In this document: positions 3,908-21,554 of the stretch, in pieces
How the letters are laid out: each line of letters starts with the position of its first letter
Numbering within the stretch: position 1 is the first letter of the stretch
DNA from: Terriglobia bacterium
GTDB taxonomy: Bacteria > Acidobacteriota > Terriglobia > Terriglobales > Acidobacteriaceae
Reading direction: 5' to 3'
NCBI GenBank assembly: GCA_020073015.1
Contig: JAIQFZ010000002.1
Location: forward strand, 1 to 64,000
Length of the DNA stretch: 64,000 nucleotides
The notes under the pieces: model-generated
Told to the model about the DNA's origin: nothing
Databases searched by the model: none
What the model saw: only the letters and a program-made list of their open reading frames with translations
Translations under genes and position numbers: made by a program

Positions 3908-4405
3908 ATGCACTTTACTGAAGGAAAGATGGGAAGCTTCACGCCTGACTCGGCCAGTCGAACGATTTTGCGAACTGGGCCACTGTGCGTGCGCATAGTC
4001 CGTACGCTCCCGAGTCCGCCATTGGTGCTGTTCCGAGCATGGACCAGGCCGTCGATTATGAAGGAGTGGTTTCATACCGGTTCCGAATGGACTACCCCAG
4101 CCGCGGAGATAGACCTCCGCGTAGGTGGACATTACCGGGTCGCCATGCAAGATGCCGCGGGCAAGATTTACTCCTATCGCGGACGCTATCAAGACATCCG
4201 CGAGCCGCGGAGTCTGGCTTTCACCTGGGCGCCCTATGGCGATCCCGCAATCGAGACGCTGGTAGTCCTCCAGTTCCGCCCGGGCCTGGCGGGCTCGAAC
4301 ACCGAACTCAAACTCAGCCATCTGGGATTGCTGCACGAACAGATGCGTGACGACCATGAGGCCATTTGGAACATATGCCTCGACCGGCTTGAGGAGACAC
4401 TATGA
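3908..4405 (+). CDS. SRPBCC/AHSA1-domain protein
   Basis: VRTLPSPPLVLFRAWTRPSIMKEWF...DLRVGGHYRVAMQD...GRYQDIREPRSLAFTW. Confidence 0.75.
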   Translation: MHFTEGKMGSFTPDSASRTILRTGPLCVRIVRTLPSPPLVLFRAWTRPSIMKEWFHTGSEWTTPAAEIDLRVGGHYRVAMQDAAGKIYSYRGRYQDIREPRSLAFTWAPYGDPAIETLVVLQFRPGLAGSNTELKLSHLGLLHEQMRDDHEAIWNICLDRLEETL

Positions 4406-4561
4406 CGCTTTTCCGGCGAGGGATACTCCGCCGCGAGCGGCCAGTTGTTTTCGCGCTGTCGTCCTGGAACATCGGGGGAATTGTATTGTGCTGGCGCCAC
4501 ACTTCGGAAGGGGGCGCAACCGGAACCAAGAATATGCGCGCGTGTGATGGACAGGAAATCG

Positions 4562-5203
4562 ATGAAGCCATTCTCTGAACCCGTCGTTTCCAGCGGCAGG
4601 GTTCTCCTCTGCGTTCCCATCATTCATACGCAAGCCGACATGGGGGCGCTGAACGAGCCCATCCAGCGTTTGAAAGTGAAGAAGCTCGGGAAAAAGGTCT
4701 GGGAACGCAACCTTGAGCTGGTGAACAACTTCTGGACCGAAATCGAACAGGCCACGGAGAACCTGGCGCTGCCCTACGAGCGCGTTCGTCTTTATCAGGA
4801 CGGGTTGCCGGTGTGCGGCCGCGAATCGGAGATCGTCACCCACCTGGCCAAGGCGGGGAGCCGGAACCATCAGCTGCTGCTTAAGTTGAAACAGAAGGGC
4901 GCAGTCCTTATGGGCACCGAGTCCGCCGAACTTTTGGTCGAAGAATATCAACTGGCGAAGCAAGTCTTGGCCGAAGAGATGTCTAGAAACTCCGCCGGGC
5001 AGGCGGCACAGGGGAAAACTTTGCAGGATTCGTTGCTCAAACGACGCGACCAGTTCATCGGCCGCCGCATCAGTCAGACGCTTCTTGCCGGCGAAACCGG
5101 CTTGCTCTTTGTAGGGATGCTCCACTCCGTCGAGCCTTGGCTTGACAAAGATATTCAGGTGCTTCGCCCAGTTGCCCTAAAGGGCGGAGAGAGATCATCG
5201 TGA
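4562..5203 (+). CDS. Conserved hypothetical protein, translationally coupled to sigma-54 regulator
   Basis: ORF from MKPFSEPVV; stop TGA overlaps GTG start of next gene (5200). Confidence 0.7.
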   Translation: MKPFSEPVVSSGRVLLCVPIIHTQADMGALNEPIQRLKVKKLGKKVWERNLELVNNFWTEIEQATENLALPYERVRLYQDGLPVCGRESEIVTHLAKAGSRNHQLLLKLKQKGAVLMGTESAELLVEEYQLAKQVLAEEMSRNSAGQAAQGKTLQDSLLKRRDQFIGRRISQTLLAGETGLLFVGMLHSVEPWLDKDIQVLRPVALKGGERSS

Positions 5204-6639
5204 CCGCCGCAGGAAACAAGATTCTCATCGTCGACAGCCAGGAAGGAATCTGCGCCTTGTTTTCGGAGTACTTGAAGAATGAGGGAATGATTCCGGTCGT
5301 GGCTCACACCGCGGAAGCCGCCCTAGAGAAGGTGCGCACGGAGGCGCCCGACTTGCTGATCGTGGATTTGGAAGTGCCGGAAATGGGCGGTCTTAAGGTC
5401 ATGAAGGCTGCCAAGGCTGTGAGCGAGGATCTCGCCACGATTCTGGTGGCGGGCACCCCCAATATTCGGGAAGCGGTCGCGGCCATACGGGCCGGGGCTC
5501 ACGGCTACCTGGAGAAACCACTCAAGCACCATGAAGTGCTGCGCGTGGTGTTCCGCGTCTTGAATGAGAGCGCGCTCCAACGCAAAGGGCGGCGACTGTC
5601 CTGCCAGGCGGAAGACGCGGCTTCCCTGCGCGAGTCCATGGGACCGAGCCGAGCGGTCACGCGCTTGAGCGCGGAAGTGGCGCGAGTTGCCAAGACCAAT
5701 TTCAGCGTTCTGATTCTGGGAGAAACCGGGGCGGGAAAGGACCTGGTGGCGGGCGCCATCCACAAACTCAGCTCCCGATCGCGGGGTCCGTTCGTCGCGG
5801 TGGATTGCGGAGCGATTCCAGAAACGCTGATCGAGGGCGAATTGTTCGGCCACGAAAAGGGAGCATTCACCGGGGCGGACAAACAGAAGATCGGCAAATT
5901 CGAAATGGCCACGGGCGGAACCTTCTTCCTCGATGAAGTCTCGAACATGCCCTTGGCATCGCAGGCCAAGCTTCTGCGCGTGTTGCAGGATAAGACCATT
6001 CACCGCATTGGCAGCACACGGCCCATCGATGTGGACGTTCGGGTGCTGGCGGCCAGCAATCGGGATATGCACGAGTTGACGGAAGCCGAAGCGGGCTCGT
6101 TCCGCCGCGACGTTTACTTCCGCTTGAACGAATTCACCATCCAGGTTCCACCCTTGCGAGAGCGCCGGGAAGACATTTTGTATCTGGCGAAGCGGTTCGT
6201 GGACCTCACAAATGCCGAATTGCAAAAACAGGTGCGGAGCTTCACTCAGCCGGCGGTGGATCTCCTGCTTGCCTACCACTGGCCCGGCAACGTCCGGCAG
6301 CTTCGTTCCATGATTCGCCGGGCGGTCCTGCTGGCCGAGGACACCATCACCGCGCAGCACCTGGCCTTCGACGACGCCCGTCCGGTGGCGAGTGCGGACC
6401 TGGAGGGGGCCCCGAGTGTCCAGATCCCGCCGCAGCGCGACTGTTCCCTGAAAGAAATCGTGCAGCACAACACGGCGCGCGTGGAGCGGGAGATCCTGGC
6501 CCACGTGCTGCGCCAAACCGGGGGCAACAAAGCCGAAGCCGCCCGCTTGCTGCACATCGACTACAAAACGATTCATCTGAAAATCAAGGTGTACGGCCTG
6601 CAGATAGCCAGACACAGAGTGAGGAAAGGAGACTTCTAA
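5200..6639 (+). CDS. Sigma-54-dependent NtrC-family response regulator
   Basis: Receiver domain (LLIVDLEVPEMGG), Walker A GETGAGKD, GAFTGAD sigma-54 contact motif, C-terminal Fis-type HTH. Confidence 0.95.
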   Translation: MTAAGNKILIVDSQEGICALFSEYLKNEGMIPVVAHTAEAALEKVRTEAPDLLIVDLEVPEMGGLKVMKAAKAVSEDLATILVAGTPNIREAVAAIRAGAHGYLEKPLKHHEVLRVVFRVLNESALQRKGRRLSCQAEDAASLRESMGPSRAVTRLSAEVARVAKTNFSVLILGETGAGKDLVAGAIHKLSSRSRGPFVAVDCGAIPETLIEGELFGHEKGAFTGADKQKIGKFEMATGGTFFLDEVSNMPLASQAKLLRVLQDKTIHRIGSTRPIDVDVRVLAASNRDMHELTEAEAGSFRRDVYFRLNEFTIQVPPLRERREDILYLAKRFVDLTNAELQKQVRSFTQPAVDLLLAYHWPGNVRQLRSMIRRAVLLAEDTITAQHLAFDDARPVASADLEGAPSVQIPPQRDCSLKEIVQHNTARVEREILAHVLRQTGGNKAEAARLLHIDYKTIHLKIKVYGLQIARHRVRKGDF

Positions 6640-7157
6640 TGGAAAAAGGAAAAGAGAAAAACGCGCACTTCGGAGTTGGGGGTGGTCTGGGGGGAATCCT
6701 GAAGGGCTTGGGAGACCTGGTGGAGAAACTCGGCGAACTGGAACAACGCGGAGGGATTTCCGAGACGGGTACGATTCACGGCGAGGGAGACAAAGTCCGA
6801 GGCATCTACGGATTTTCCGTGAAGGTGGGATTGGGAGACCAGGGGCCACGCATCGAGCCCTTTGGTAACATCCGCCGCGATGCCGACTCCGGGCGAACCG
6901 AGGTCCAGGAGGTTCGCGAACCCATGGTGGACGTCTTCGAGGAACAGGACCACGTTCTGGTTTTGGCGGAATTGCCCGGCATCAGCAAAGACGATGTCCA
7001 AGTCGATGTGAAAGACGATGTCCTGACCATCGCCGCCGAACGTGGGGAGAAAAAATATCGCAAGGAAGTTCTGCTGCCTTACTGCGTCTCAAAAGATAAA
7101 ATACAGATTACCTGTAACAACGGAGTGTTGGAACTTAAGTGCCCAAAACAGCCGTAA
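6639..7157 (+). CDS. gvpH: Hsp20/alpha-crystallin family protein, GvpH-like
   Basis: DVFEEQDHVLVLAELPGISKDDVQVDVKDDVLTIAAER alpha-crystallin core; position in gvp cluster. Confidence 0.75.
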   Translation: MEKGKEKNAHFGVGGGLGGILKGLGDLVEKLGELEQRGGISETGTIHGEGDKVRGIYGFSVKVGLGDQGPRIEPFGNIRRDADSGRTEVQEVREPMVDVFEEQDHVLVLAELPGISKDDVQVDVKDDVLTIAAERGEKKYRKEVLLPYCVSKDKIQITCNNGVLELKCPKQP

Positions 7158-7179
7158 GTACAGATTGCGAGAGCCGTTC

Positions 7180-9303
7180 ATGAAAATAGATACGAAGACA
7201 CTCAAGCTCAAAGTCACTGAAGCGCTGAGTAAGGATGTGGGCCGCGCCTACGCTCGCATGGGGCCGGAGGATATGGCCCAGTTAGGGCTCGAGATAGGTG
7301 ACATTGTGGAAGTCGCTGGCAAGGTAAAAGCGGTCTGCAAGGCAATGCCGGCTTACAAGGAGATGCGGGGGCAATCGCGAATCCAACTCGACGGACTCAC
7401 GCGGGAGAATGCCGGAGTCGGACTCGACGAGCATGTCCAAATCCGCCGCATCACTTGTCCAGCCGCGGAGCGGGTGGTGCTGGTTCCGGCCAACGTGGTT
7501 CCGTCCGAGCGGGATATGGAATACATTGGCAGCCGTCTTGACGGCCTGCCGGTTTCGGCCGAGAACCGTATTCGGGCCGTCCTGTTCGGCGCACGTTGGG
7601 CGGATTTCAAAGTCGAAAGCACGGTGCCGAAGGGCCCCGTGTTAATCGGCCCGGGGACCGAGCTTCTGATCTCCAAGCTTAAGTCGCAGCAGGTAGCGGA
7701 GCGGGCGATCTCCTATGAGGACATTGGCGGACTGAAGCCTCATCTCCTCAGAATCCGGGAAATGATTGAGCTTCCTCTCCGCTACCCTGAGGTGTTCGAG
7801 CGGCTGGGAATCGACGCGCCGAAAGGCGTGCTTCTATACGGCCCTCCTGGATGCGGTAAGACACTCATCGCGCGCGCCATCGCGCACGAGACGCAGGCGA
7901 ATTTCTTTTCCGTCAGCGGTCCGGAAGTCATCCATAAGTTTTACGGCGAAAGCGAAGCCCACTTGCGGAAAATTTTCGAAGAGGCCGGACGCAAGGCGCC
8001 GAGCATTATCTTTCTCGACGAACTGGATGCGATCGCACCCCGCCGCGACCAGGTGGTGGGCGAAGTGGAGAAGCGTGTGGTCGCCCAGTTGCTGGCGCTG
8101 ATGGACGGGCTTTCGAAACGGAACAAGGTCATTGTCATTGCGGCCACCAATCTTCCCAACGTCCTCGATCCGGCTCTGCGCCGCCCGGGGCGGTTCGACC
8201 GGGAGATCTCCATCCCGATTCCCGACCGCCACGGGCGCCGGGAGATCTTGGAGATTCACAGCCGCGGCATGCCACTCGAGGAAAGAGTCGATCTGGCGCA
8301 CCTGGGCGATATCACGCACGGCTTTGTCGGGGCGGACCTGGAGGCGCTGTGCCGGGAATCCGCCATGATTTGTCTGCGCCGCATCATGCCCGACGTGGAC
8401 TTTGGCTTGGCGCGCATCCCCTACGACCAACTCGCCAAGCTTGAGGTCACGATGGATGATTTTCTCTCGGCCCTGCAAACCATCGAACCTTCGGCGATGC
8501 GCGAGGTGTTTGTCGAAGTCCCCAACGTCAGTTGGGAAGATGTAGGAGGTTTGGCCGAGATCAAAGCTCGCCTGGTGGAAGCGGTCGAGTGGCCGCTGCA
8601 ATATCCTGGTCTGTTCACCGAGGCCGGGATCCGGCCACCGAAAGGCATCCTGCTGTCGGGCCCTCCCGGCTGCGGGAAGACCCTTCTTGCCAAGGCGATT
8701 GCCAGCGAAACTAACGTCAACTTCATTTCGATCAAAGGGCCGGAATTGCTTTCGAAGTACGTGGGTGAATCCGAGAAAGCGGTGCGCGAAATTTTTCGTA
8801 AGGCGAGGCAGGCCGCGCCTTGCATTATTTTCTTCGACGAAATCGACGCGCTGGTGCCCAGCCGGAGCGCTGGCACCTCCGACTCGCACACCTCGGAGCG
8901 CGTCCTGAGCCAGTTTCTTACCGAACTGGATGGAGTAGAAGAGTTGCGCGGAGTGTTGGTGCTTGGAGCCACCAATCGGGCGGATATGTTGGATCCAGCC
9001 ATCATCCGGCCCGGCCGCTTTGACGAGATCGTGGAAATCCCGTTGCCCGACGAAGCCGGCCGCGCGGAGATCTTCCGCATCCAGTTACGCAACAAACCAC
9101 TGGGCATGGAACTAAATGCTCAGGACCTGGGGTCGCGAACCGAAGGCTGCAGCGGCGCCGACATTAGCGCCGTGTGCCATCAGGCTGCCCTGGGAGCAAT
9201 CCGGCGGGCCGTTCACGCCGGCGAAGAGCCCGTCGGCAGCCACGTCAAGGTAAGTATTGAAGCCACGGACCTGGAAGCGGCGCTGCAGAAGATTCGCCGA
9301 TAA
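7180..9303 (+). CDS. Cdc48/VCP-like double AAA+ ATPase
   Basis: Two AAA modules (GPPGCGKTLIARAIA, GPPGCGKTLLAKAIA), Walker B FLDELDAIAP and FFDEIDALVP, N-domain AYARMGPEDMAQLGLEIGDIVEV. Confidence 0.93.
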   Translation: MKIDTKTLKLKVTEALSKDVGRAYARMGPEDMAQLGLEIGDIVEVAGKVKAVCKAMPAYKEMRGQSRIQLDGLTRENAGVGLDEHVQIRRITCPAAERVVLVPANVVPSERDMEYIGSRLDGLPVSAENRIRAVLFGARWADFKVESTVPKGPVLIGPGTELLISKLKSQQVAERAISYEDIGGLKPHLLRIREMIELPLRYPEVFERLGIDAPKGVLLYGPPGCGKTLIARAIAHETQANFFSVSGPEVIHKFYGESEAHLRKIFEEAGRKAPSIIFLDELDAIAPRRDQVVGEVEKRVVAQLLALMDGLSKRNKVIVIAATNLPNVLDPALRRPGRFDREISIPIPDRHGRREILEIHSRGMPLEERVDLAHLGDITHGFVGADLEALCRESAMICLRRIMPDVDFGLARIPYDQLAKLEVTMDDFLSALQTIEPSAMREVFVEVPNVSWEDVGGLAEIKARLVEAVEWPLQYPGLFTEAGIRPPKGILLSGPPGCGKTLLAKAIASETNVNFISIKGPELLSKYVGESEKAVREIFRKARQAAPCIIFFDEIDALVPSRSAGTSDSHTSERVLSQFLTELDGVEELRGVLVLGATNRADMLDPAIIRPGRFDEIVEIPLPDEAGRAEIFRIQLRNKPLGMELNAQDLGSRTEGCSGADISAVCHQAALGAIRRAVHAGEEPVGSHVKVSIEATDLEAALQKIRR

Positions 9304-9326
9304 ACTTTCGGAATGGGTTTGACTCG

Positions 9327-10144
9327 ATGGAAAACAACGAACCCGCACTCTACTTGTTCTGCTTTGCCCGTTCGGACGCGGTTCGAGAGGTGCCGGAGCC
9401 CGCTGCAGACGGCCACAGCCCGCTTTCGATACTCCGCCATTCTCCCGATCTGTGTTCGGTGATCGGCGAAGTTCGACGCGAGGAGTTCTGTGGTCCGAGG
9501 CAGAACTCCACATGCAGCAACTGTCCTGGATGGCGCCGCGCGCCATGCGTCACGAGGCAGTGATTGAAGAGGTCATGGCGCACTCTCCGGTTCTGCCGGC
9601 GCGTTTCGGCACGCTTTTTTCGTCGGCAGAAGTCCTGACGGAGTTTGTGGATCAACATCGCGAAACGATTACTCTGTTCCTCGAGCGGGTCGCCGATCAC
9701 GGGGAGTGGTCAGTAAAGGGCCGGTTCGACCGGAAGCAATCCCAGCAGGTTCTTATATCCACCAACCTGACCGCACAACAGGAACAGCTCGCCACCTTGC
9801 CGCCCGGGACACGCCACTTCGCCGAACAGCGTCTCCGCCGAGACCTGGAGAGAGAGTTGAGCACATGGCTCGAACAGACCTGCCGTAAAATCGCGACGGA
9901 TCTCACGAGCTATGCTTCCGACTTCCGCGAATGTACTGTAGCGCCAGTCGCGCATTCGGAAGGCGGAAGCGCGGAGGTGCTGAATTGGGCCTTTCTGGTG
10001 CCCAACTCAGCGATCGCTCCGTTTCAGGAGTACGTGGAACGGGCGAACCTGAACCATCGATCGCAGGGATTGCTGCTCGAACTCTCCGGCCCATGGCCGC
10101 CCTTTCGTTTCGTTCCTGATTTATCCGCGATCGGCGCCCCATGA
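9327..10144 (+). pseudogene. GvpL/GvpF family protein interrupted by an apparent frameshift
   Basis: N-terminus (YLFCFARSD...SVIGEVRREEFCG) in ORF 9327-9563; continuation (SEAELHMQQLSWMAPRAMRHEAVIEEVMAHSPVLPARFGTLF...) in another frame of ORF 9452-10144. Confidence 0.8.
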
Positions 10145-10860
10145 GTTACCTGCTCTACTGCGTCTTTCGCAGCCTTCCGCAGCCGGAACCGGAAGTTCTC
10201 CCCGGCGTGGAGGGACAACCGGTGTTGGTCATGGATCACCGCGGCTTAAGCGCCGCTATTTCTGAGCTTCCGGAATCGGACCTGCATCCCGATCTCGCCC
10301 GCGTGCTCGCTTATGAGAGGGTGGTGAAATTTGTTTTTGGCCGCCGCACCATAATTCCCATGCGCTACGGCTGCGCGGTGCGAGACCGGCTGGAGCTCGC
10401 GGCGGTGTTGGATACGCATCGTAACGAGTGCGACGCACTGCTCCACCGGCTCGAAGGGTTGGCGGAGATGGGCGTCCAGGTTCCAGCCGGCGGCTCCGAA
10501 ATTGGATCGGCGGCAGTCCCGCCGGCACGCCTTCACGACTCGAGTTGGTCGGGTGCTTCTTATCTCTTAGCCAAGAAGTTGTATTACCTCGGCGCGGACC
10601 AAAACGTCGAACGGCAGAACGAACTGGTACAGACCCTTTGCCATCCGCTGGCCGGGCTGTTCGTGCACCGCAAAGTGGAATTACCTTCTCGTGGAGCGCC
10701 TCTCCTGTCTCTCCACTTCCTGGTGCCGCGCGCTTCCGTCGAAGCCTTTCGTGAGGCCAGCCGGCACTCTCTTCCGAACGACGCCACCAGACTACTTGTA
10801 AGTGGACCATGGCCACCGTACAACTTCGCTGATTTCTCGAGCGGCCGCGGGATTTCATGA
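10141..10860 (+). CDS. GvpL/GvpF family gas vesicle protein
   Basis: MSYLLYCVF...VLAYERVVKFVFGRRTIIPMRYG...GPWPPYNFADF; ATGA overlap with preceding gene. Confidence 0.85.
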   Translation: MSYLLYCVFRSLPQPEPEVLPGVEGQPVLVMDHRGLSAAISELPESDLHPDLARVLAYERVVKFVFGRRTIIPMRYGCAVRDRLELAAVLDTHRNECDALLHRLEGLAEMGVQVPAGGSEIGSAAVPPARLHDSSWSGASYLLAKKLYYLGADQNVERQNELVQTLCHPLAGLFVHRKVELPSRGAPLLSLHFLVPRASVEAFREASRHSLPNDATRLLVSGPWPPYNFADFSSGRGIS

Positions 10861-11156
10861 CACCCGTGCTCTTTGATTCGGCCGTGGGGTTCACGCACCT
10901 TGAAGTAGAGGTACCCGCGCTATGGAATCAATCCCCTAGTGGCCAACTAAGAGTGGACACTCGCAATTGCAGCGTGACGTTGGTCATCTCTTCAATCGGG
11001 TTGGAACTCGTTCATAAGAATGACGGCCACTCTGGCCGGACTAACTCCGCCCTCAAGAACACGGAAATCCACAGCATTGTTGCTCCGCGGGTCGGTCACG
11101 TGCACTGTTACACGCGGGGAACGCAAGTAAGTTCCTTTTCAGAAAAGGAGAAATAA
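10857..11156 (+). CDS. Hypothetical 99-aa ORF between gvpL/F and gvpA (may be leader/regulatory)
   Basis: ATGA overlap with preceding stop; no recognisable domain. Confidence 0.35.
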
Positions 11157-11158
11157 TT

Positions 11159-11377
11159 ATGGCGAAAGTTCAAAAGTCTACCGACTCTTCCAGCTTAGCG
11201 GAAGTTGTCGATCGGATTCTTGATAAAGGTATCGTGATCGACGTTTGGGCAAAAGTCTCGCTGGTCGGGATCGAGCTACTGTCAGTCGAAGCCCGGGTAG
11301 TGATTGCCTCCGTTGAAACCTACCTGAAGTACGCGGAAGCCATCGGTCTGACGGCCAGCGCGGCAGCTCCTGCTTAG
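11159..11377 (+). CDS. gvpA: Gas vesicle major structural protein GvpA
   Basis: [53 protein letters not shown], canonical GvpA; strong RBS aaggag. Confidence 0.97.
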
Positions 11378-11405
11378 CGCATGGTGCGGTTGATCGTAAC
11401 CAAGT

Positions 11406-11434
11406 GGGGGGGCGAGTTTAGGCCCCCTTCTCTT
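11406..11434 (+). terminator. GC-rich hairpin just downstream of gvpA (possible attenuator/processing site)
   Basis: ggggg(gg)cgagtttaggccccc followed by ttctctt. Confidence 0.5.
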
Positions 11435-11484
11435 GGCGCAGTACGAGAACGGTAAGGGTGCGAGAAAACTGAAGGAGGATACCA

Positions 11485-11778
11485 ATGGGTCCATTGACGA
11501 AAGACATGACTCGGTTGTCGGAGGAAATCCAGACGCTGCGGGCGGGCCGTCACGAACTGAAGAAGCAGCTCGCCGAGAGGACGAAGGCAAGGCGGGTGGA
11601 GGTCGTCGAAACCCGCGCGGCGTTCACGGAGGCCCGAAACTGGAAAGCGGAGAGTGCACACACTACCCGGCAGCATTTTGTGGACAACCTGAAACAAGCG
11701 GTCGCCGAACAGGGCAAGTCCCTCCGGGACGATCTCGCCACGGCTCGGCGCGTCTGGGGCAAGCTGCGGGTTGCATGA
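11485..11778 (+). CDS. Small coiled-coil protein in gvp cluster (copy 1)
   Basis: MGPLTKDMTRLSEEIQTLRAGRHELKKQLAERTKARRVEVVETRAAF...; RBS gaaggagg. Confidence 0.65.
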   Translation: MGPLTKDMTRLSEEIQTLRAGRHELKKQLAERTKARRVEVVETRAAFTEARNWKAESAHTTRQHFVDNLKQAVAEQGKSLRDDLATARRVWGKLRVA

Positions 11779-11835
11779 CGAAGGTGACGGCACCGAATCC
11801 GTATCGGCAGTACCTGTCGGGGACGGAGGGACGCG

Positions 11836-12225
11836 GTGGACGCTCTTTCTAGAGCTCTGACCCGGATTTGCGATGAGATCCTCTCCTTGCGGGAGGAGCG
11901 CGAACGATTTCTCTCCGGCCTGCAGCTGGAGACTACGGATCGCAAGCGTGCCGTGTCCCGGATGTTGGCCCGGTTCGCGAAGGACTTGGCGGAAATCGCC
12001 CGGCGGAGACGAGATGTCCGGAGGTTTTTTCTGCCCGATCTTAAGCGGACGGTTCTCCGGCTCCGGCAGCGCCAAGACCGCCAGGGAGCAACTGAAGCTC
12101 ACGGCGAGGAACACTCGCGATGGAAAACGGACGAAGCGGAACCCGCCCGAGAAGCAATGCATGTCCGTATGAGAATCGAACGCGGACGCCGGCGTAAAAG
12201 CGTTCGTCATCCGCATCGGCCTTGA
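11836..12225 (+). CDS. Small coiled-coil protein in gvp cluster (copy 2; C-terminus possibly frameshifted)
   Basis: MDALSRALTRICDEILSLREERERFLSGLQLETTDRKRAVSRMLARFAKDLAEIARRRRDVRRFFLPDLKRTV resembles copy 1. Confidence 0.5.
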   Translation: MDALSRALTRICDEILSLREERERFLSGLQLETTDRKRAVSRMLARFAKDLAEIARRRRDVRRFFLPDLKRTVLRLRQRQDRQGATEAHGEEHSRWKTDEAEPAREAMHVRMRIERGRRRKSVRHPHRP

Positions 12226-12247
12226 ATCTTGAAAGGAGTTCAAAACC

Positions 12248-13318
12248 GTGTCATCTCCTGAGGTAGCGCGATACCCAGTCGTCGAGCAGACTCCCAGGGA
12301 AGAGCCGCCCGTTCCGAACGATGATTCCGCAACCGTCTTAGATGCCGAGGTGAAGGTCTCGGCGGAGGACGTCGATATTGTCCCGGAAGCCAGTGATTCG
12401 TTCGTCTCGACACCCTACGTCGAAAGTCTCACCGCCCGCGCACTCACTTACATGGATGTCGGATACGCGCTGCACTTTGCGGGCCCGGCAGGAACGGGAA
12501 AAACGACGCTCGCTTTTCACGTTGCCAGCAAGCGCGGCCGGCCCGTCGTTCTGATCCATGGCGACGACGAGTATGCCAGTTCCGACCTGGTAGGGAAGGA
12601 TTCCGGCTATCACAAGTCCAAGCTGGTCGACAATTACATTCACTCCGTGATGAAGACCGAAGAGAGCTTGAGCAGAATCTGGGAAGACCAGAGACTGACC
12701 ACCGCCTGCATCAAGGGCTATACCCTGATCTACGATGAATTCAACCGCTCCCGGCCCGAAGCCAACAATGTTCTCCTCAGTGTGCTGGAGGGCAAGATTC
12801 TCAACTTGCCCAATCTGCGCAGGTCCGGGGAGGGCAATCTGCACGTGCACGAGGACTTCCGCGCGATTCTGACCTCAAACCCGGAAGAGTATGCCGGCGT
12901 GCATAAGACCCAGGACGCGCTGCTCGATCGCCTGATTACGATCAACCTTGGACACTTGGATCGCGAGACGGAGATCGCGATTGCCATGGCGAAGTCGGGA
13001 CTCCCGCGTCCCGATGCGGAAACCATCGTCGATATCATCCGGGAACTCCGTGGAGTGGGTGTCAACAACCATCGTCCCACCATCCGAGCGGGCATCGCCA
13101 TCGCCCGCATCCTCGCCCATCACCAGGGGTCGGCCCAAATTGGCGACTCCACCTTTGAGACGATCTGCCACGACGTGCTCAACACCGACACCGCGAAAAT
13201 TACTCACCAGGGCCAGTCGCTGATGGTCGAAAAGGTGCAAGAAACCATTCGCAATGTGTGTGGCGAACCAGCCGGCCGGAGCAAGGACCGCCGCCGGCGA
13301 GAACGGGAAAGGAAGTAA
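12248..13318 (+). CDS. gvpN: Gas vesicle protein GvpN (MoxR-like AAA+ ATPase)
   Basis: GPAGTGKTTLAFHVA, LIYDEFNRSRPEANNVLLSVLEG, LTSNPEEYAGVHKTQDALLDRL; GTG start with RBS. Confidence 0.95.
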   Translation: MSSPEVARYPVVEQTPREEPPVPNDDSATVLDAEVKVSAEDVDIVPEASDSFVSTPYVESLTARALTYMDVGYALHFAGPAGTGKTTLAFHVASKRGRPVVLIHGDDEYASSDLVGKDSGYHKSKLVDNYIHSVMKTEESLSRIWEDQRLTTACIKGYTLIYDEFNRSRPEANNVLLSVLEGKILNLPNLRRSGEGNLHVHEDFRAILTSNPEEYAGVHKTQDALLDRLITINLGHLDRETEIAIAMAKSGLPRPDAETIVDIIRELRGVGVNNHRPTIRAGIAIARILAHHQGSAQIGDSTFETICHDVLNTDTAKITHQGQSLMVEKVQETIRNVCGEPAGRSKDRRRRERERK

Positions 13319-13320
13319 AC

Positions 13321-13623
13321 ATGCCCATCCCACTTCGAGGTCTGAGAACCATTCGCACCTTGGCAGGGAAAGTGGATCTGGTTGCGGTTCCCCATCGGGC
13401 GCATCTGCAGATCGCTTGCCTGGAACTCGAAAAGGCCCGGCGCACGACCGAGCGAACCAGCGCGCTCCGGCGAGTGGCGGAACTCGATGCCCGGCTCCAG
13501 GAAATCGACGCCGAGCAAGCCCACCTTCTCCAGGCCCTGGCCGACCGCAAGGGGCAAACCGTGGAAGCCGCGGCCGGCCGCCCAACCCGGCGGCGTGCCC
13601 AGCCCTTCAAGATCCGTTACTGA
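13321..13623 (+). CDS. Small hypothetical protein in gvp cluster
   Basis: MPIPLRGLRTIRTLAGKVDLVAVPHRAHLQIACLELEKARRTTERTSALRRVAELDARLQEIDAEQ; located between gvpN and a gvpL/F gene. Confidence 0.6.
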   Translation: MPIPLRGLRTIRTLAGKVDLVAVPHRAHLQIACLELEKARRTTERTSALRRVAELDARLQEIDAEQAHLLQALADRKGQTVEAAAGRPTRRRAQPFKIRY

Positions 13624-13680
13624 GAACCTGTTCCGGGGGGTGCCGGCTTTGACTGCCGCCCCGCTGGGCCCGCCGAAGAG

Positions 13681-14496
13681 ATGGAGGACAACGTGAGTAC
13701 CGCTCGCACCCCAATTGCAAAATCCGCTGAGAAGCGCCCGCCCACGCGGGCAGCAGCGCGAGGGAAGATCTACCTGTACGCCATCATCGCCGGTGGCGAA
13801 GATCGGGCTTACGAAGAGGCCGGCATCGACCAAAGCAATCTGTATTCCATTTCGATGGGACAGATTGCCGCCGTCGTCAGTGATGTCGTGAACGAAAACG
13901 TGCGCCCGGAACGTGCCCGCCTGGCGGCCCATCACCAAGTTCTGAAGAAACTCATGGCCGAGAGCACGCCGCTGCCCATGTCCTTTGGGATCGTTGCCGA
14001 CAGCCCGGCCGCGGTTCGCCGGATGCTCGAGCGCAACCAGGACGTTCTGCTCGATCAACTCCAGCACGTCGCCGGCACGGTCGAAATGGGGCTGCGGATT
14101 ACCTGGGATGTGGAGAACATTTTTGAGTATTTCGTGACCACTCATCCGGAACTCCGGCTAGCCAGAGACAGATTATTGGGTTCCAATTGCCAGCCCACGC
14201 AGGAACAAAAAATTGAAGTTGGCAGGATGTTCGACCGCCTGCTCACGGACGACCGGGAAGCCCACAGCGATCTGGCAATGGGAATCTTCGCGAGCCACAA
14301 GTGTGAAATCAAGCAGCTGAAATGCCGCAACGAGCGCGAAGTGATGAACCTGGCTTGCCTGGTCAAGCGCGAGGCGGTTCCGCTGTTCGAAGCCGCCGTG
14401 TTCGAGATCGCGAAGCAGTTCGATAACAACTTCGCCCTCGACTACAACGGGCCTTGGGCTCCGCATAACTTCGTCAATGTCGATCTCGAACTTTAG
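13681..14496 (+). CDS. GvpL/GvpF family gas vesicle protein
   Basis: IYLYAIIAGG...MGQIAAVVSDV...PLPMSFGIVADS...YNGPWAPHNFVNV. Confidence 0.92.
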   Translation: MEDNVSTARTPIAKSAEKRPPTRAAARGKIYLYAIIAGGEDRAYEEAGIDQSNLYSISMGQIAAVVSDVVNENVRPERARLAAHHQVLKKLMAESTPLPMSFGIVADSPAAVRRMLERNQDVLLDQLQHVAGTVEMGLRITWDVENIFEYFVTTHPELRLARDRLLGSNCQPTQEQKIEVGRMFDRLLTDDREAHSDLAMGIFASHKCEIKQLKCRNEREVMNLACLVKREAVPLFEAAVFEIAKQFDNNFALDYNGPWAPHNFVNVDLEL

Positions 14497-14514
14497 AAAC
14501 CATAGGAGGATCCG

Positions 14515-14757
14515 ATGTTCGTCGTGGATGACCTCCTAATGGCCCCAGCCCACGGGCTGCTCTGGATCTTCCAGGAGATCCACCGCGCGGCTCAGGAGGA
14601 GATGGTGAGTGATGCTGAATCGATTACCGCGGAGCTCAGTGCTCTCTACATGAGACTGGAAACGGGGAAACTTACCGAGGAAGAGTTCGCTGCGGAAGAG
14701 AAAGTCCTGCTCGAGCGGCTGGACAAGATCCACAGGCCCGGCAAACAAATCGGATAG
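14515..14757 (+). CDS. gvpG: Gas vesicle protein GvpG
   Basis: MFVVDDLLMAPAHGLLWIFQEIHRAAQEE...LTEEEFAAEEKVLLERLD. Confidence 0.93.
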   Translation: MFVVDDLLMAPAHGLLWIFQEIHRAAQEEMVSDAESITAELSALYMRLETGKLTEEEFAAEEKVLLERLDKIHRPGKQIG

Positions 14758-14832
14758 CAGCGCCAGGTCGGGAATCAGAAGTCAAACCGCAGCGGTCAGG
14801 CCTCAACGGGCAGACCCAGGAAGAGAGGGGCA

Positions 14833-16809
14833 GTGGAGGGGAACGCGAGACGCGCGAGTGATGCGGGAGTTCCACGTTTTCTGGCCCCCCTCGACTTGCA
14901 GCTCCTGATCTTCGGCGGCAAAGGTGGGGTCGGAAAGACGACCTGCGCGACGGCCGCCGCGCTGCGACTGGCCGCGCGTTCGCCGCAGTCGTCTTTTTTG
15001 CTGGTTTCGACCGACCCAGCTCACTCGCTCGCCGACAGCCTGGAGGACCTCGTTCCTCCACGGAACCTGAAGGTCCTGGAACTCAACCCGCAAGAATACC
15101 TGCTGGATTTCAAGAAGAAGCACAACGATCAATTGCGGGAAATCGCATCCCGGGGAACCTTTCTGGATGACGAAGAAATCAACCGCTTCCTCGATCTCTC
15201 CCTGCCCGGCCTGGACGAACTCATGGCGTTCCTGGAAATATCCGCCTGGGTGGAGAAGCGCGTTTACGACTGCATCATTGTAGATACCGCCCCCAGCGGT
15301 CACACTCTGCGGCTGCTCACCATGCCGCAGTTCCTCCGGAAATGGGTGGCCATGCTGGAGACTCTGCTGGCCAAGCACCGCTACATGAAATGGGCCCTGG
15401 CCCGCTCCCGCGATCGCGATAATCTGGACGCCTTTCTGGATGAACTGACCAGCTCGGTAGAACAGATGGAGGCGGTCCTCCAGGACTCGGCCCGCTGCAG
15501 TTTTGTTCCCGTGATGCTGGCGGAGGTCATGAGCCTGCGCGAGACGGTCGCAATCGTGAGCGAGGCGGACCGCCTCCAGATCCCCATCGACGACATCATC
15601 ATCAATAAGCTGCATCCCGAAAGTCATTGTCCGGTTTGCCGCGGAGAACTCTACCGGCAGGCGTGTGGACTTAGAGATCTTTTTCTCAACACTTCCTTGA
15701 CTCGGTTTGCGCTCTGGGGAATCCCTTTACACGCTGAGGAAGTCCGAGGGCAAATTGCCTTGCAGTCGTTCTGGGAAGAAGCCAGACCAATCCGCGAGCC
15801 TCCTGCGATGGTACCCGCACCGAGGCTGTCTCCGGGAGTCAAGGTGGACGCGGGTGTTCCATCGCCTCCTCCCGGAACGACCCTGCTTATTTTCGCCGGC
15901 AAAGGCGGCGTCGGAAAGACCACGCTCGCGTGCGCGACCGCCCTGCATTTGGCGGAGCGTTCCCCGGGCCGGAACGTGCTGCTCGTTTCCGTGGGATCTG
16001 CCCACTCCCTGTCAAGCTGCCTGGACCTGCCGATCAGTTCGCATCCAGGACGCGTGGCCCCAGGCGTCACCGCCCTCGAGATCGATTCCGAGGCGGAATT
16101 CGAGGCTTTGAAGCATCAGTACGCCGGAGATATCGAGAAGTTTTTGGAATCGGTCTCCCGCAATTTTGATTTGGCATTCGACCGCGAGGTGCTCGAACGA
16201 ACCCTCGACCTTTCTCCTCCGGGGTTAGACGAGGTGATGAGCCTGACCAGGGTTATGGCGCTTCTCGCCTCCGGCGAATTCGACATCTTGGTCCTTGATT
16301 CGGCGGCCACCGGTCACCTGATCCGGCTGTTGGAGCTTCCCGAAATCATCGACCAATGGCTCAAAGCCTTTTTCGCTCTGTTTCTGAAATATCAACAGAT
16401 TTTCCGGCTGACGGGGTTTTCTCAGGAACTGGTTCTCATGTCCAAGAACCTCAAGAAGCTGCGGCAATTGCTGAACAATCCGGCGCAATCCGCGCTTTAT
16501 GCGGTGAGCATTCCTACCGACATGGCTTTTGAGGAAACTCGCGACTTGCTAACCGCCTGCGGCCGTTTGGGTATTAACGTACCCGGCATTTTTCTCAACT
16601 TGGTGACGCCCCCGAGTGATTGCGCCTTGTGTGCGGCGATGAACCGCCGGGAATCGCTGATCCATGGGAAGTTCAAGCAGACTTTTCACGGGGACGTTGG
16701 CGTGATCTACCGACGCGGCGAGATCCGAGGTTTGCACTGGCTGGCAAAACTGGGAGATGCGCTCTATCAATGCAGGCACGTCGGAGCAGGGGCCGTCCAT
16801 GCCGACTGA
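14833..16809 (+). CDS. Tandem ArsA/Get3-family ATPase
   Basis: Two deviant Walker A motifs FGGKGGVGKTTCATAAALRLA and FAGKGGVGKTTLACATALHLA; paired DTAPSGHTLRLL and DSAATGHLIRLL motifs. Confidence 0.92.
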   Translation: MEGNARRASDAGVPRFLAPLDLQLLIFGGKGGVGKTTCATAAALRLAARSPQSSFLLVSTDPAHSLADSLEDLVPPRNLKVLELNPQEYLLDFKKKHNDQLREIASRGTFLDDEEINRFLDLSLPGLDELMAFLEISAWVEKRVYDCIIVDTAPSGHTLRLLTMPQFLRKWVAMLETLLAKHRYMKWALARSRDRDNLDAFLDELTSSVEQMEAVLQDSARCSFVPVMLAEVMSLRETVAIVSEADRLQIPIDDIIINKLHPESHCPVCRGELYRQACGLRDLFLNTSLTRFALWGIPLHAEEVRGQIALQSFWEEARPIREPPAMVPAPRLSPGVKVDAGVPSPPPGTTLLIFAGKGGVGKTTLACATALHLAERSPGRNVLLVSVGSAHSLSSCLDLPISSHPGRVAPGVTALEIDSEAEFEALKHQYAGDIEKFLESVSRNFDLAFDREVLERTLDLSPPGLDEVMSLTRVMALLASGEFDILVLDSAATGHLIRLLELPEIIDQWLKAFFALFLKYQQIFRLTGFSQELVLMSKNLKKLRQLLNNPAQSALYAVSIPTDMAFEETRDLLTACGRLGINVPGIFLNLVTPPSDCALCAAMNRRESLIHGKFKQTFHGDVGVIYRRGEIRGLHWLAKLGDALYQCRHVGAGAVHAD

Positions 16810-17086
16810 TACCAGGATGAGAGCAGGTCTTGCGGCGGCTCCCCGGCTCATGCTCGCTGACTCCCGCCAGCCTTCACTGTGCGAGGTGCTCGACCGGGTA
16901 CTGAACAAAGGGGCTGTGATCGATGGGGAAGCGACCATTTCGGTGGCTGGGATCGACCTGGTCTACCTTGGATTGAAGCTGATGCTGACCTCCATCGAGA
17001 CGGCACGCCGCGAGTCCCGGTTCGGAGTGGCAGAATTCGGTTCGGCAACGAATATTGCGGAGGAGAAGCTCGATGGCGACCTCTGA
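16799..17086 (+). CDS. GvpA-family minor protein (GvpM/GvpS-like)
   Basis: LCEVLDRVLNKGAVIDGEATISVAGIDLVYLGLKLMLTSIETA; start overlaps end of ArsA-like gene. Confidence 0.82.
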   Translation: MPTDTRMRAGLAAAPRLMLADSRQPSLCEVLDRVLNKGAVIDGEATISVAGIDLVYLGLKLMLTSIETARRESRFGVAEFGSATNIAEEKLDGDL

Positions 17087-17453
17087 AATAGCGCGCTCGG
17101 AGTGTGAGAACCTCAATGATTTTTCTCAGGTAATGGATGCCGGGGCTCCTGCGCTCGAGTCTGCACTGCGGGAGAGGTTGAAGAGCCGGTCCGGCCGGTT
17201 GAACTTCGATGTTAACGGCGCCAAGAATGGTCTTGGACAACTGGTGCTGACTCTGGTGAAACTCCTGCACGAATTGCTGGAGCGGCAGGCCATCCGCCGC
17301 GTGGAATCCGGTTCGCTGAGCGATCGGCAGACCGAAGAATTGGGCCTGGTCCTCATGCAGCAGGCCCAGGAAATCGAGCGGCTCCGGAAGGAATTCGGCC
17401 TGGAAGAAGACGACCTCAACCTTGACCTGGGCCCGCTCGGAAGGCTTCTATAA
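17073..17453 (+). CDS. gvpK: Gas vesicle protein GvpK
   Basis: GRLNFDVNGAKNGLGQLVLTLVKLLHELLERQAIRRVESGSLSDRQTEELGLVLMQQAQEI. Confidence 0.95.
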   Translation: MATSEIARSECENLNDFSQVMDAGAPALESALRERLKSRSGRLNFDVNGAKNGLGQLVLTLVKLLHELLERQAIRRVESGSLSDRQTEELGLVLMQQAQEIERLRKEFGLEEDDLNLDLGPLGRLL

Positions 17454-17462
17454 GGAAACATT

Positions 17463-17786
17463 ATGGTGCAACAGCGCAATCTGTCACATTCGGTCGAGTC
17501 TTCCACATTGGCGGACGTGCTCGAGCGCGTTCTGGACAAAGGGATCGTGATCGCCGGTGATATCAGGGTGAAACTGGTTGACATCGAACTGCTCTCGATT
17601 CAGATCCGGCTGGTCATTTGCTCGGTGGACAAGGCCAAGGAGATGGGCATGGACTGGTGGGTGAATAACCCGATCTTTCGTCCCGACAAGCAGCAGGAAA
17701 TCGCGCAGGCTTCTCTTACCAGCCTGGAGGAGAGATTGGCCACCTTGGAAGCTTCTCTGAGCAAAGCCGCGGCGCACGCCAGTTGA
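17463..17786 (+). CDS. gvpJ: GvpA-family protein GvpJ-like
   Basis: [52 protein letters not shown]. Confidence 0.88.
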
Positions 17787-18033
17787 GCTGCCAACATGCA
17801 GCGTATCGAATCATGACATCACCCTGAACAAAGCTGCTGGGATCACTGCTCTGATTGCCGCCGTGAGTTCGCTCACATTCCCTTGTGACCAGTTCCACGC
17901 CGGTTTGCGGCGCTAGAGACGCACACCATGGAGCGGCCCCCAGGGCTGGTGTTCTGCGGAAGAATTCCGTCGCAGGTCACGGACCGAGGTGAGAGCGTTT
18001 TCAGACTGCAAGCAACTACGAGGTTTGATCCGC

Positions 18034-21000
18034 TTACATCACGTTGATGGTGACCTCTTCGGCCTCCCGGACGTCACCGCCGGCACCGGCCGGCGAATGA
18101 GCAGCGAGATCAGTCAGCGGGCATTTGGGCGACAGATATTTCAGTTTGCGCTGAATGATCTCCTGTGAGTACTTGCCAAGATAATGGGCGATGGTCTCGA
18201 CGCGGATCTTGATGCCGCCGGCCGGCTTGGTGGAATCGAGATCGCCGAATTTGAAATACAAGGTGCCGGTCGCCTCGACGATCTTTTGTGCCGGCGTGTA
18301 GGTGGGCTGGTCCATGCCGCACTCGTAACTTGAGAGGCGCACCACACAGGTGATCCACGGGCAGCGGGTGGCGACCTTGGCGCCCCACATGATTTCGTTA
18401 GTGTTGCTGCTGTAGGAGGACGTCCAGACATCGGAGATGTCGAACGGGTTCTTGATCCGGCCGGAGCGCAGGTCCGACTCGAAGAGCCAGTTCATCAGGT
18501 CCAGATCGCCAGGCAGGTATTGCAGCCAGAGGATCGGGTAGCCATGCGCCTGGACTTCAGCCTCGATCTCGTGACCAATGCCGGTGTCCATGTGATAGGG
18601 GCGAGCCAGCACGAGAATGCAGGGCTTCTGGTTCTCAGCGCACCAGGTCAGGATCTCTCGGCCTTGTTGGCGAATGCGAGCGGTGACGTCGTCGAGAGCG
18701 GCGAATCCAGCCTTCACGGCCCGATCCGTTTCCTCTCGGTCGAGGTCGAAAACATCTTTCAACGATGTGTACATCTGTTCTGCCACCATGTGGCGATCGC
18801 CGAGGCTGACGAACGGAGAGGCGTGGACGACATTGTTCTCAGCGAAGATATCCCGCTCTTTGAGGAACCCGGCCTTGATGTTCTCCGGTCCCGCCATGAC
18901 CCGCGTACAGGTGACCGTGTCCACCACGTGGCCGTGCAGAACGGAAGGCAGGGAGTGAATCATCGGGCTGAGCAGGACGTTGATCTTCTTCTTCTGTCCG
19001 AAGATCAGTTCACCGTAGTGACCGCTCATAGCCTTGACGGGATAGCAGCAGTCCACCGTGCCGCGTCCCTTGCCGAACTCGCGTCCTTGCTCTTCGGAGG
19101 TGTCGGAGCTGAACACAATGTTCTCCGAAGCCACGCCGAGTTCCTTCAGGAAGCCCACCCAGAACTGGTGGGTCGACCAGATGTTGAGGACCTTCGGGAT
19201 CCCGACGCGAAGCTGGGAGCGATCCTTGACCCTAGTTTCGGCGGAACCCTTCTTTGCGAACCATGTCTGCAACATTCGGATAGGCATTTTTCGTTTTCTC
19301 GATCCCGGCCTTGATGACCTTCATTTCGTTCAAATCTTCGACCAACCCTTTCGGGCAGGAGTTGTTGACAATCACGCGTTCCCAGCCTGACGCCAGAGGG
19401 ACCTTGCTCCAGGGTCGCCCCTTGCCTTCGAGCAACTCGACATCGATGAAGCTGCGCTGGCAGTTGACGGGGCACCAATGGCAGACGGTGTCTGCCGAAG
19501 TGGCCGTCTTGTAGGAGAGCTTCTCGATCGCATCGAAGCCGCGAAACATCGTGCGCCCGCCGTTGTTCCACGAGCTTCTCGATCGCATCGAAGCCGCGAA
19601 ACATCGTGCGCCCGCCGTTGTTCCACCAGTCAAGAGCGACCAGCGCGGCGCCGATGGCACCGGCCTCGCCGGAGAAGGGATGAACGACGACCTCGGCCTC
19701 GGGAACTTTGCCGAGGATGAAGTCCACCTGCGTCTTCACGACCGCGAGATTGCGATGCGTCCCGCCCTGCAGAATGTATTTGCGGCCGACTTGTTGCAGG
19801 TTGTTCAGCCCGCCGGCGTAGATCCACACGTTCAGCGGGAGGATGGCGCAGAGCCCGGCGAGAATTTCCTCGGCCTGCCATCCCTTGCGCTGCTGGTTGA
19901 CGATGTCGCTCTGCAGGAAAACGCCGCAGCCCATCGAGAGTTGAGGCATGGCCTGCGCGCGAAAAGCGCCGTCGGCCATCTCGCCCATGGGGATGTTAAA
20001 GCGCTCGGCGACTCCCTGCAGGAAGGCGCCGTTGCCCGAAGAGCACTGGGAGTTCAGACGGAAGTCGGTGACCGCGCCGTTGTTGAGGATCATGATCTTC
20101 ACGTCTACACCGCCAACGTCGCAGATGCAGTCGGCATCGGGGAAGAAGTGAAGACCGGCGGAGGCATGGGCGATGGTCTCGACCACCGGACAGTCGGCCC
20201 CCAGGATGTCCCTGAGCAAGTCCTTGCCGTAGCCGGTGATGGCGAGCCCGAGGATGTCGCGGTCGCTGACCACGGAGCGGACTTGGCGGAATAGCGACTT
20301 CGCGTCTTCGATCGGGTTGCCCTTGCTCAACGCGTAGCAGGAGAAGAGAAGTTCCTTCTCCGGCGACATGCACACTGCCTTGGCCGTAGTGGAACCGAAG
20401 TCACAGCCAAGCACGACGCGGCCGACACTACTCTCCGCAACCGCCACGCTGGGTGTCACCGAACGAGCCTGGGATTTTTCGTAGCGCGCTTTGAAGGTGG
20501 CCAGGTCGGCATCGTCTTTGCAGAGTCCGCCGCGGCCCATCTTCTTCTTTTCTTCGTACTGGCCTTCCTCGATCCAGTACTTGAGCTTGTGCGCGCCATT
20601 GTAAAGACCGGTCGCGCCGTTCTCGCGTAACGCAACCTCTACGCAACCGAGAGCCGCGTAGTAGAGCGCGTTGTCAGGAACGCGAATGAGCGAGGACATG
20701 TCGCGATCGTCCGAGACCTGAACCTTGCGCTCCTTCCAGACCTTGCCCAGATGATGGCGCCATGCTTCCTGCAAGCCCTTGAAGAACAGATTCGGGCCAC
20801 CTAGCAGCAGAATCTCAGGCAACGGTGTGTTGCCGCGCGTCAGCGTAGCTAAGTTCTGATACACCACCGCCTCGAACAGCGAGGCGATAATCTCCTCGAC
20901 CGGAACCCCTGCCTTCAGCAGAGTGTTGGCATCGGCCTCCGCGAAGATGCCGCACTTGCTGCTGATTTTGTGCAATGGATATCCGGCATAGCCCATGTTG

Positions 21001-21554
21001 GAGAGCGTTTCCGGCGGGATCTCCAGCTTGCGCGCGGTCTTCTCGATGAAGGTGCCCGTGCCGCCGGAGCAGGCACTCTGCATGAGCACCTGCTTGCTGC
21101 GCGAAATACCTTCGCCCTGGAAGAAGATGGTCTTCATATCCTCGCCGCCGATTTCACTGACAAATCGCACCGAGGGATGAAGCTTTTCCACCGCAGCAGC
21201 AACCGCCGCCACTTCCTGGACAACCTTGCCTCCGATCAACGGCGCAATGATGCCCGCGCCAGAACCGGTGAAGAAGACGCGGTCACGTCCGGGCGTGAGG
21301 CCGTGCTTCGACTCCAGCAGAGTTAGGAACTGCAGGATTTTCTCCGCCTGCCGTGTGTTGTGGCGCTCGTAGGCCTGCGCCACCACATCGCCGCGCGGCG
21401 TCGCCAGCACGTACTTGCAAGTCGTGCTTCCGACGTCGAGCCCACACAACATGCTTTCGCCTTCAAATACCGCAGGCGAAGGTGCGGGAGCCAGCAGCGC
21501 GCCCGGCTCCCCTTCGATCGGTTGAATCTGCACCAATCCGCTTGCCATGAACAT
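18034..21554 (-). pseudogene. BadF/BadG/BcrA/BcrD-type acyl-CoA dehydratase activase with DUF2229-like C-terminus, split into three frames
   Basis: Two ATPase repeats (CGLDVGSTTCKYVL, LGCDFGSTTAKAVC) in ORF 19146-21554; continuation in ORF 19232-19660 (SYKTATSADTVCHWCPVNCQ...), then ORF 18034-19287 (LRVGIPKVLNIWSTHQFW...). Confidence 0.88.
19517..19626. repeat. Exact 55-bp tandem duplication inside activase gene
   Basis: gagcttctcgatcgcatcgaagccgcgaaacatcgtgcgcccgccgttgttccac at 19517-19571 and again at 19572-19626. Confidence 0.98.

Follow-up and report, generated by a model that had tools for sequence, protein, structure and literature searches.

Among protein shells, gas vesicles alone are, to our knowledge, known to hold gas; their proteins GvpA, GvpJ and GvpS are hydrophobic, and the vesicles are used as acoustic reporters. 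In Serratia sp. ATCC 39006, the gas-vesicle (gvp) locus comprises gvpA1-C-N-V-F1-G-W-A2-K-X-A3-Y and gvrA-gvpH-Z-F2-F3-gvrB-gvrC (PMC9501494). Vesicle formation of any kind in this organism needs only gvpA1, F1, G, A2, K, A3, F2, F3, gvrA and gvrB. Mutants in gvpN and gvpV form small bicones, gvpV being needed to grow bicones into cylinders. Deletions of gvpH, gvpW and gvpZ keep vesicles in native Serratia, yet the signal is reduced or abolished when the genes are missing in E. coli (PMC10344784). Outside Serratia, the haloarchaeal GvpH protein keeps GvpM soluble (PMC6107691), and Castillo and Saier (2010; PMC2963123) linked ArsA and Hsp20 to gvp genes, acidobacteria included, and proposed a biogenic step energised by ArsA. 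Here, we analyzed a gvp cluster at positions 4562-17786 of a 64,000-nucleotide stretch from a Terriglobia bacterium (assembly GCA_020073015.1, contig JAIQFZ010000002.1, positions 1 to 64,000), which is called the window throughout.

The best explanation of this locus is that it represents a sigma-54/NtrC-controlled gas-vesicle cluster of the Serratia 39006/Desulfobacterota type in an Acidobacteriaceae-like genome, in which the extra genes would form a dedicated proteostasis set for hydrophobic shell proteins. Taken as a whole, this explanation falls just on the probable side. The standard kit of this cluster type, which is found in about nine phyla, includes an Hsp20, a p97-type unfoldase, U1 (an unclassified conserved protein) and a single-chain Get3-like ATPase. 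What is new here is the U1 family and a CDC48 lineage that occurs in gvp clusters alone, and these are the parts worth following.

Gas-vesicle cluster of the window and the Serratia 39006 locus

The cluster is compact, with all genes on the + strand and many of them overlapping by a few bases. It unites gvpA with gvpF/L, gvpG, gvpK, gvpN and J/S-type genes and encodes three PF00741 (Gas_vesicle) proteins (11159-11377, 16757-17086 and 17463-17786) and three GvpL/F proteins (9327-10144, 10141-10860 and 13681-14496). An earlier note on this DNA had named gvpA, N, G, K, J, three L/F genes, an Hsp20, a double AAA+ protein and a tandem ArsA. Profile annotation found all of them on the + strand exactly where that note had placed them; its list had left out the NtrC-family regulator at 5200-6639. 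The following features were assigned.

4562-5203, +, U1, unclassified conserved protein of 213 residues, the cluster's first gene (family alignment, AlphaFold2 model)
5200-6639, +, NtrC-family sigma-54 response regulator (REC, Sigma54_activat and Fis HTH) in the position of Serratia gvrA (profiles; PMC4982088)
6639-7157, +, Hsp20/GvpH (PF00011 and PF05455 (GvpH); NF041800 slightly below its cut-off)
7180-9303, +, CDC48/p97-family double AAA+ ATPase with CDC48_N, in the Serratia gvpZ slot (TIGR01243)
9327-10144, +, GvpF in the F2 position, broken by a one-base deletion (profile and comparison with relatives)
10141-10860, +, GvpF/L in the F3 position (PF06386)
11089-11104, +, putative sigma-54 (-24/-12) promoter of gvpA, degenerate (in register with the nearest relatives)
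11159-11377, +, GvpA, main shell protein (NF006874, 133 bits against a cut-off of 100)
11485-11778, +, short, probably GvpC-like coiled-coil protein 1 (repeats in longer relatives)
11836-12225, +, short, probably GvpC-like coiled-coil protein 2 (repeats in longer relatives)
12248-13318, +, GvpN AAA+ ATPase (54% identity to an annotated GvpN)
13318-13620, +, GvpV-like small protein (motifs; gvpV position as in PMC4982088)
13681-14496, +, GvpF in the F1 position (PF06386, 211 bits)
14515-14757, +, GvpG (PF05120)
14833-16809, +, tandem Get3/ArsA-type ATPase (TIGR00345; two GKGGVGKT, two CxxC)
16757-17086, +, GvpA2/GvpS-like minor shell protein, probable start near 16799 (PF00741)
17055-17453, +, GvpK (profile match)
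17463-17786, +, GvpA3/GvpJ-like minor shell protein (PF00741)

A gap of about 300 bases separates GvpF/L, which ends at 10860, from GvpA, so that the order reads U1 - NtrC-type regulator - Hsp20/GvpH - CDC48 - GvpF (frameshifted) - GvpF/L on one side and GvpA - two GvpC-like proteins - GvpN - GvpV-like - GvpF - GvpG - tandem Get3/ArsA - GvpS-like - GvpK - GvpJ-like on the other.

This is the order of the Serratia 39006 type, with the Z and W slots matched by position. The two operons recur in both loci and keep their gene order within (regulator-Hsp20-[Z]-F2-F3 and A1-C-N-V-F1-G-[W]-A2-K-A3). The window differs in that the second operon comes first, as it is also reported to do in Psychromonas ingrahamii and Desulfomonile tiedjei (PMC4982088), that U1 precedes the regulator, that gvpC is split into two short genes, and that no gvpX, gvpY, gvrB or gvrC was recognised in it. 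In a sample of 350 gammaproteobacterial genomes, four clear GvpK matches were obtained and one new genome with the Serratia layout was found (G562). Its operons stand in the Serratia order, and the second contains U1-NtrC-Hsp20-CDC48-F; CDC48 lies between gvpH and gvpF, but no ArsA lies between gvpG and gvpA2.

Distribution and properties of U1, CDC48 and the tandem ATPase

Chance is excluded as the source of the cluster because the whole gene order is conserved in dozens of genomes. An alignment scan of a genome collection with U1 yielded 254 relatives, the best 80 of which were kept; phyla were taken from record titles and the loci were annotated with profiles built from the window. The loci belong to Acidobacteriota, Verrucomicrobia, Desulfobacterota/Deltaproteobacteria, Planctomycetota, Nitrospinia, Rokubacteriota, Omnitrophota, Poribacteria and Pseudomonadota, and the recurrent order is U1-NtrC-Hsp20-CDC48-F-F-A-C-N-V-F-G-(ArsA)-A-K-A. 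In the 58 loci whose sequence continues for 5 kb or more downstream of U1, gvp genes were present in 57, NtrC in 56, CDC48 in 54 and Hsp20 in 51. The sole exception, L135, was rejected as a gvp-free U1 locus, its genome carrying a full gvp cluster elsewhere. Among plasmids, four records and no others contain U1, and all four carry GvpN; in a Methylosinus plasmid it lies between gvpH and a gene annotated as 'CDC48 family AAA ATPase'.

The same near-exclusive linkage was observed within the phylum of the window organism. GvpK was detected in 23 of 396 genomes and U1 in 11, all of them GvpK-positive (Fisher p 1.7e-15); none of the 373 GvpK-negative genomes contained U1. CDC48 scored above its curated cut-off in 12 genomes of the phylum, nine of them GvpK-positive (p 2.7e-10). 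These p-values are optimistic, as related genomes were treated as independent; the cross-phylum pattern is unaffected. The earlier note had stated that its proposal would fall if the non-canonical genes did not turn up repeatedly with gvp genes; for U1, NtrC, Hsp20 and CDC48 this linkage proved extremely strong. The gene load that it had called atypical is, on the other hand, the ordinary layout of the Serratia/Desulfobacterota type, and the combination of ArsA, Hsp20 and gvp genes had been published in 2010 (PMC2963123). As for the 'non-classical gas-vesicle lineage' that it had suggested, the nearest U1 loci are indeed metagenome-assembled genomes named Acidobacteriaceae (U1 identity 76-84%), though acidobacterial gvp clusters already figure in that paper.

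The plasmid records annotate U1 as 'hypothetical protein', and its family has no match in Pfam or NCBIfam, the profile libraries used. The 79 aligned members share invariant H22, Y78-Q79-D80, N102, E120, E128, R162, G185 and H188, residues that form what looks like an enzyme pattern. The AlphaFold2 model is confident (pLDDT 91.8, pTM 0.87); Foldseek found no match to it at E <= 0.001 among solved structures in PDB or viral models in BFVD, and PDB sequences, searched by profile, yielded no convincing match. Weak sub-threshold matches to TraB/PrgY/GumN were seen in 40 of the 79 members (best E 2.3e-4). The window protein itself has no PF01963 (TraB/PrgY/GumN) match, and profile-profile comparison with hhalign gave a probability of 4%, barely above the GvpN negative control, with a match restricted to the region of the C-terminal RD..-GxxH motif. 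On these grounds, and with no PDB fold match, U1 was not assigned to TraB/GumN. Two diverged U1 copies adjoin Hsp20 and CDC48 in loci L166 and L167 (genomes G290 and G266). Since U1 occurs almost only beside gvp genes, it is probably a missing part of gas-vesicle building or clearance.

The double AAA+ protein belongs to the CDC48 family (TIGR01243, 894 bits against a cut-off of 803; CDC48_N present); among solved structures it matches a VCP-like ATPase (5g4f) best, followed by p97. Walker A and B are intact in D1 and D2, and both rings have aromatic pore loops (KFYG and KYVG) besides intact nucleotide sites, as in threading unfoldases. It thus shares with CDC48, p97 and VAT the family profile, the N-domain and both intact AAA modules, and differs from them in being bacterial, in belonging to a gvp-dedicated lineage and in its C-terminus, which is not HbYX-like. 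In a tree that also included ten CDC48s of the same phylum not neighbouring gvp genes as its few outgroups, 68 of 69 gvp CDC48s fell into one clade apart from these ten (support 0.86). The genome of the window has no second full-length CDC48. Our literature search on gas vesicles with CDC48, ArsA or Get3, which left most subscription papers outside its reach, found no account of CDC48 in gvp clusters.

The tandem ATPase (14833-16809) carries one Walker A (GKGGVGKT) and one CxxC in each half, and is a member of the Get3/ArsA family (TIGR00345, 344.6 bits against a cut-off of 135). Its closest solved relative is the algal tandem ArsA1 (5zme, E 6e-45), then Get3. A classical arsenic pump (ArsA proper) was rejected, given 144 bits with TIGR04291 against a cut-off of 650 and no other ars gene in the cluster; the genome of the window has no second tandem ArsA. 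P-loops and CxxC motifs in both halves are shared with algal ArsA1 and Get3/TRC40, factors that shield hydrophobic helices. These relatives target tail-anchored proteins, whereas the window ATPase is encoded in a gvp cluster. A two-domain ArsA of about 640 residues within a gvp cluster, often with Hsp20, is likewise a feature of ArsA homologue clusters 4 and 6 as described in PMC2963123; CDC48, in contrast, goes unmentioned in that paper (0 occurrences), and its relevant passages name neither U1 nor the regulator.

Regulation, smaller genes and surroundings

The NtrC-family regulator probably shows how the cluster is controlled. In Serratia, gvpA1 is under sigma-54 and GvrA (PMC4982088). In many orthologues gvpA is preceded, mostly at a distance of 62-140 bases, by sigma-54-like sites that come near the consensus, several of them perfect, and the mean best score upstream of the orthologues was 18.3 versus 15.3 for shuffles. 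The site of the window at 11089 is degenerate, and over the whole window the sigma-54 consensus is not in excess.

Of the 'unknown small proteins' listed in the earlier note, one lies in the GvpV position, two are probably GvpC-like and one, the 99-residue open reading frame at 10857-11156, was rejected as a gene. It is not conserved, homology is lost over much of its length, and it overlaps the region upstream of gvpA with the putative promoter. Repeats of about 33 residues are a hallmark of GvpC. The two coiled coils at 11485-12225 have no match to a curated GvpC profile and are too short for a repeat test of their own; because their longer orthologues (L131, L088 and G296) show a clear 33-residue periodicity, with offset-33 scores of 0.43 and 0.65 versus shuffle maxima of -0.24 and -0.15, they are taken as short, probably split, GvpC-like proteins. 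The protein at 13318-13620 occupies the Serratia gvpV position and combines a coiled coil with two motifs, a conserved N-terminal RGL..IRTLAG and a C-terminal FKIRY.

In the gvpF gene of the F2 position, whose counterpart gvpF2 is essential in Serratia, one base is lost at about 9493-9498 in comparison with four relatives (L066-L069) that have an open frame. This frameshift is either real decay or an assembly error; if it is real, the expectation from Serratia is that the organism forms no vesicles. A CoA-dehydratase activase gene nearby (BcrAD_BadFG and DUF2229; 18034-21554, - strand) is present as two overlapping frames and also looks frame-shifted, which hints at an assembly error.

Homology to L067, a relative of the same genus, extends over 3927-17810, and the flanks are unrelated. 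GvpK occurs in two of 24 genomes of the genus. The cluster probably moves as a unit, as an island, because its flanks are unrelated, its occurrence in the genus is patchy and it is plasmid-borne elsewhere. An AHSA1/SRPBCC gene (PF08327; 3908-4405, + strand) lies directly upstream of U1; its coding sequence is conserved in L067 and was not detected in L066. No tRNA was found in the window. In L120 (9900-13211), the cluster is reduced to U1, ArsA, A2, K and A3 by an apparent internal deletion or degradation. Some related gvp clusters contain additional DnaJ-like CxxCxGxG zinc-finger proteins (L124, 19527-20009; L117, 10710-11205 and 12853-13233), a further chaperone-type gene that was not seen in the window. 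A second gvp type with the order F-G-ArsA-F-A2-F-K-A3-A1 and without CDC48 or U1 exists in the same phylum (G029, G042, G286, G148, G362, G376 and G348); GvpN was not matched in these loci by the window-derived search.

Possible roles of the additional genes

In the proteostasis reading that we favour, GvpA would build the shell, GvpJ, S, K, G and F would nucleate it, GvpN and GvpV would extend it and the GvpC-like proteins would brace it. Hsp20/GvpH would hold unassembled GvpA-type proteins, and the single-chain tandem Get3-like ATPase would shield the hydrophobic helices of shell proteins and hand them over. With Hsp20 feeding it and U1 probably helping, a CDC48 hexamer may pull apart mis-assembled or collapsed shell protein for reuse or degradation. 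The division of labour would then be one of holding and delivery by Hsp20 and the Get3-like ATPase, and of removal by CDC48 and U1. The assembly/quality-control module that the earlier note had proposed is plausible because the linkage is very strong and the gvp CDC48s form one clade; the role itself is inferred. If the positional equivalences hold, the gvpH, gvpW and gvpZ phenotypes are easier to reconcile with a role in yield or quality control than with an indispensable step of assembly. More tentatively, U1, Hsp20 and the dedicated CDC48/p97 lineage could constitute a bacterial disaggregation or disassembly machine dedicated to a single organelle, the gas vesicle; U1 would serve in it as adaptor or peptidase.

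Several points weigh against this reading. U1 is missing from 12 of the phylum's 23 GvpK-positive genomes, and these 12 also have no CDC48 above the cut-off, so that the module is dispensable for some gas-vesicle types. In G093, G170, G296 and G463, U1 is part of the cluster and does not adjoin CDC48. Outgroups are few in the CDC48 tree, and the gvp CDC48 of Methylosinus is not a member of the gvp clade. The C-terminus of the window CDC48 (LEAALQKIRR) lacks a proteasome-docking (HbYX-like) motif. Window CDC48 and ArsA are equated with gvpZ and gvpW by position alone, and we infer the client relationships, the partnership of U1 with CDC48 and a function in clearance over one in assembly.

Another possibility, which we regard as rather unlikely, is that U1 together with CDC48/Hsp20 senses misfolded or unassembled Gvp protein and adjusts the NtrC regulator, making the operon a feedback circuit. 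U1 lies directly upstream of the NtrC gene in most loci and is usually translationally coupled to it; in the window the U1 stop overlaps the regulator start (4562-5203/5200-6639), and in Serratia gvrA, gvrB and gvrC place regulation within the same operon. However, where the regulator does not intervene, U1 usually stands beside Hsp20/CDC48 (L132, L142, L144, L145, G120, G555, G074 and Methylosinus), an arrangement that speaks for the proteostasis reading, and NtrC-type regulators are usually paired with a histidine kinase, such as the PAS-domain or ATP-binding protein that accompanies a response regulator in the plasmid clusters.

It appears similarly doubtful that CDC48 and the tandem ArsA are assembly factors that, with GvpN, actively load GvpA into the shell as it grows. 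Both are co-operonic with GvpN, the biogenic step proposed for ArsA in PMC2963123 would agree with such a role, and so would the lower signal of the H, W and Z deletions in E. coli. The Serratia genes gvpZ, gvpW and gvpH, if they are the counterparts, are nonetheless not required for vesicles in the native host, and many GvpK-positive clusters have no CDC48. Finally, general stress genes hitch-hiking on a mobile gvp island without a special role would agree with flanks that differ between genomes of one genus, with the patchy and partly plasmid-borne occurrence and with the AHSA1 gene that rides along in one relative, but this is very improbable in view of an order kept across about nine phyla, the restriction of U1 to GvpK-positive genomes, the separate clade of gvp CDC48s and a genome with no other full-length CDC48 or tandem ArsA.

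With the proteostasis set, concrete genes are now testable for how hydrophobic GvpA is kept soluble, delivered and cleared. If the disassembly machine proves true, it would be, as far as is known, the first p97 of bacteria whose organelle client is known, and it would explain how collapsed or mis-nucleated vesicles are cleared.

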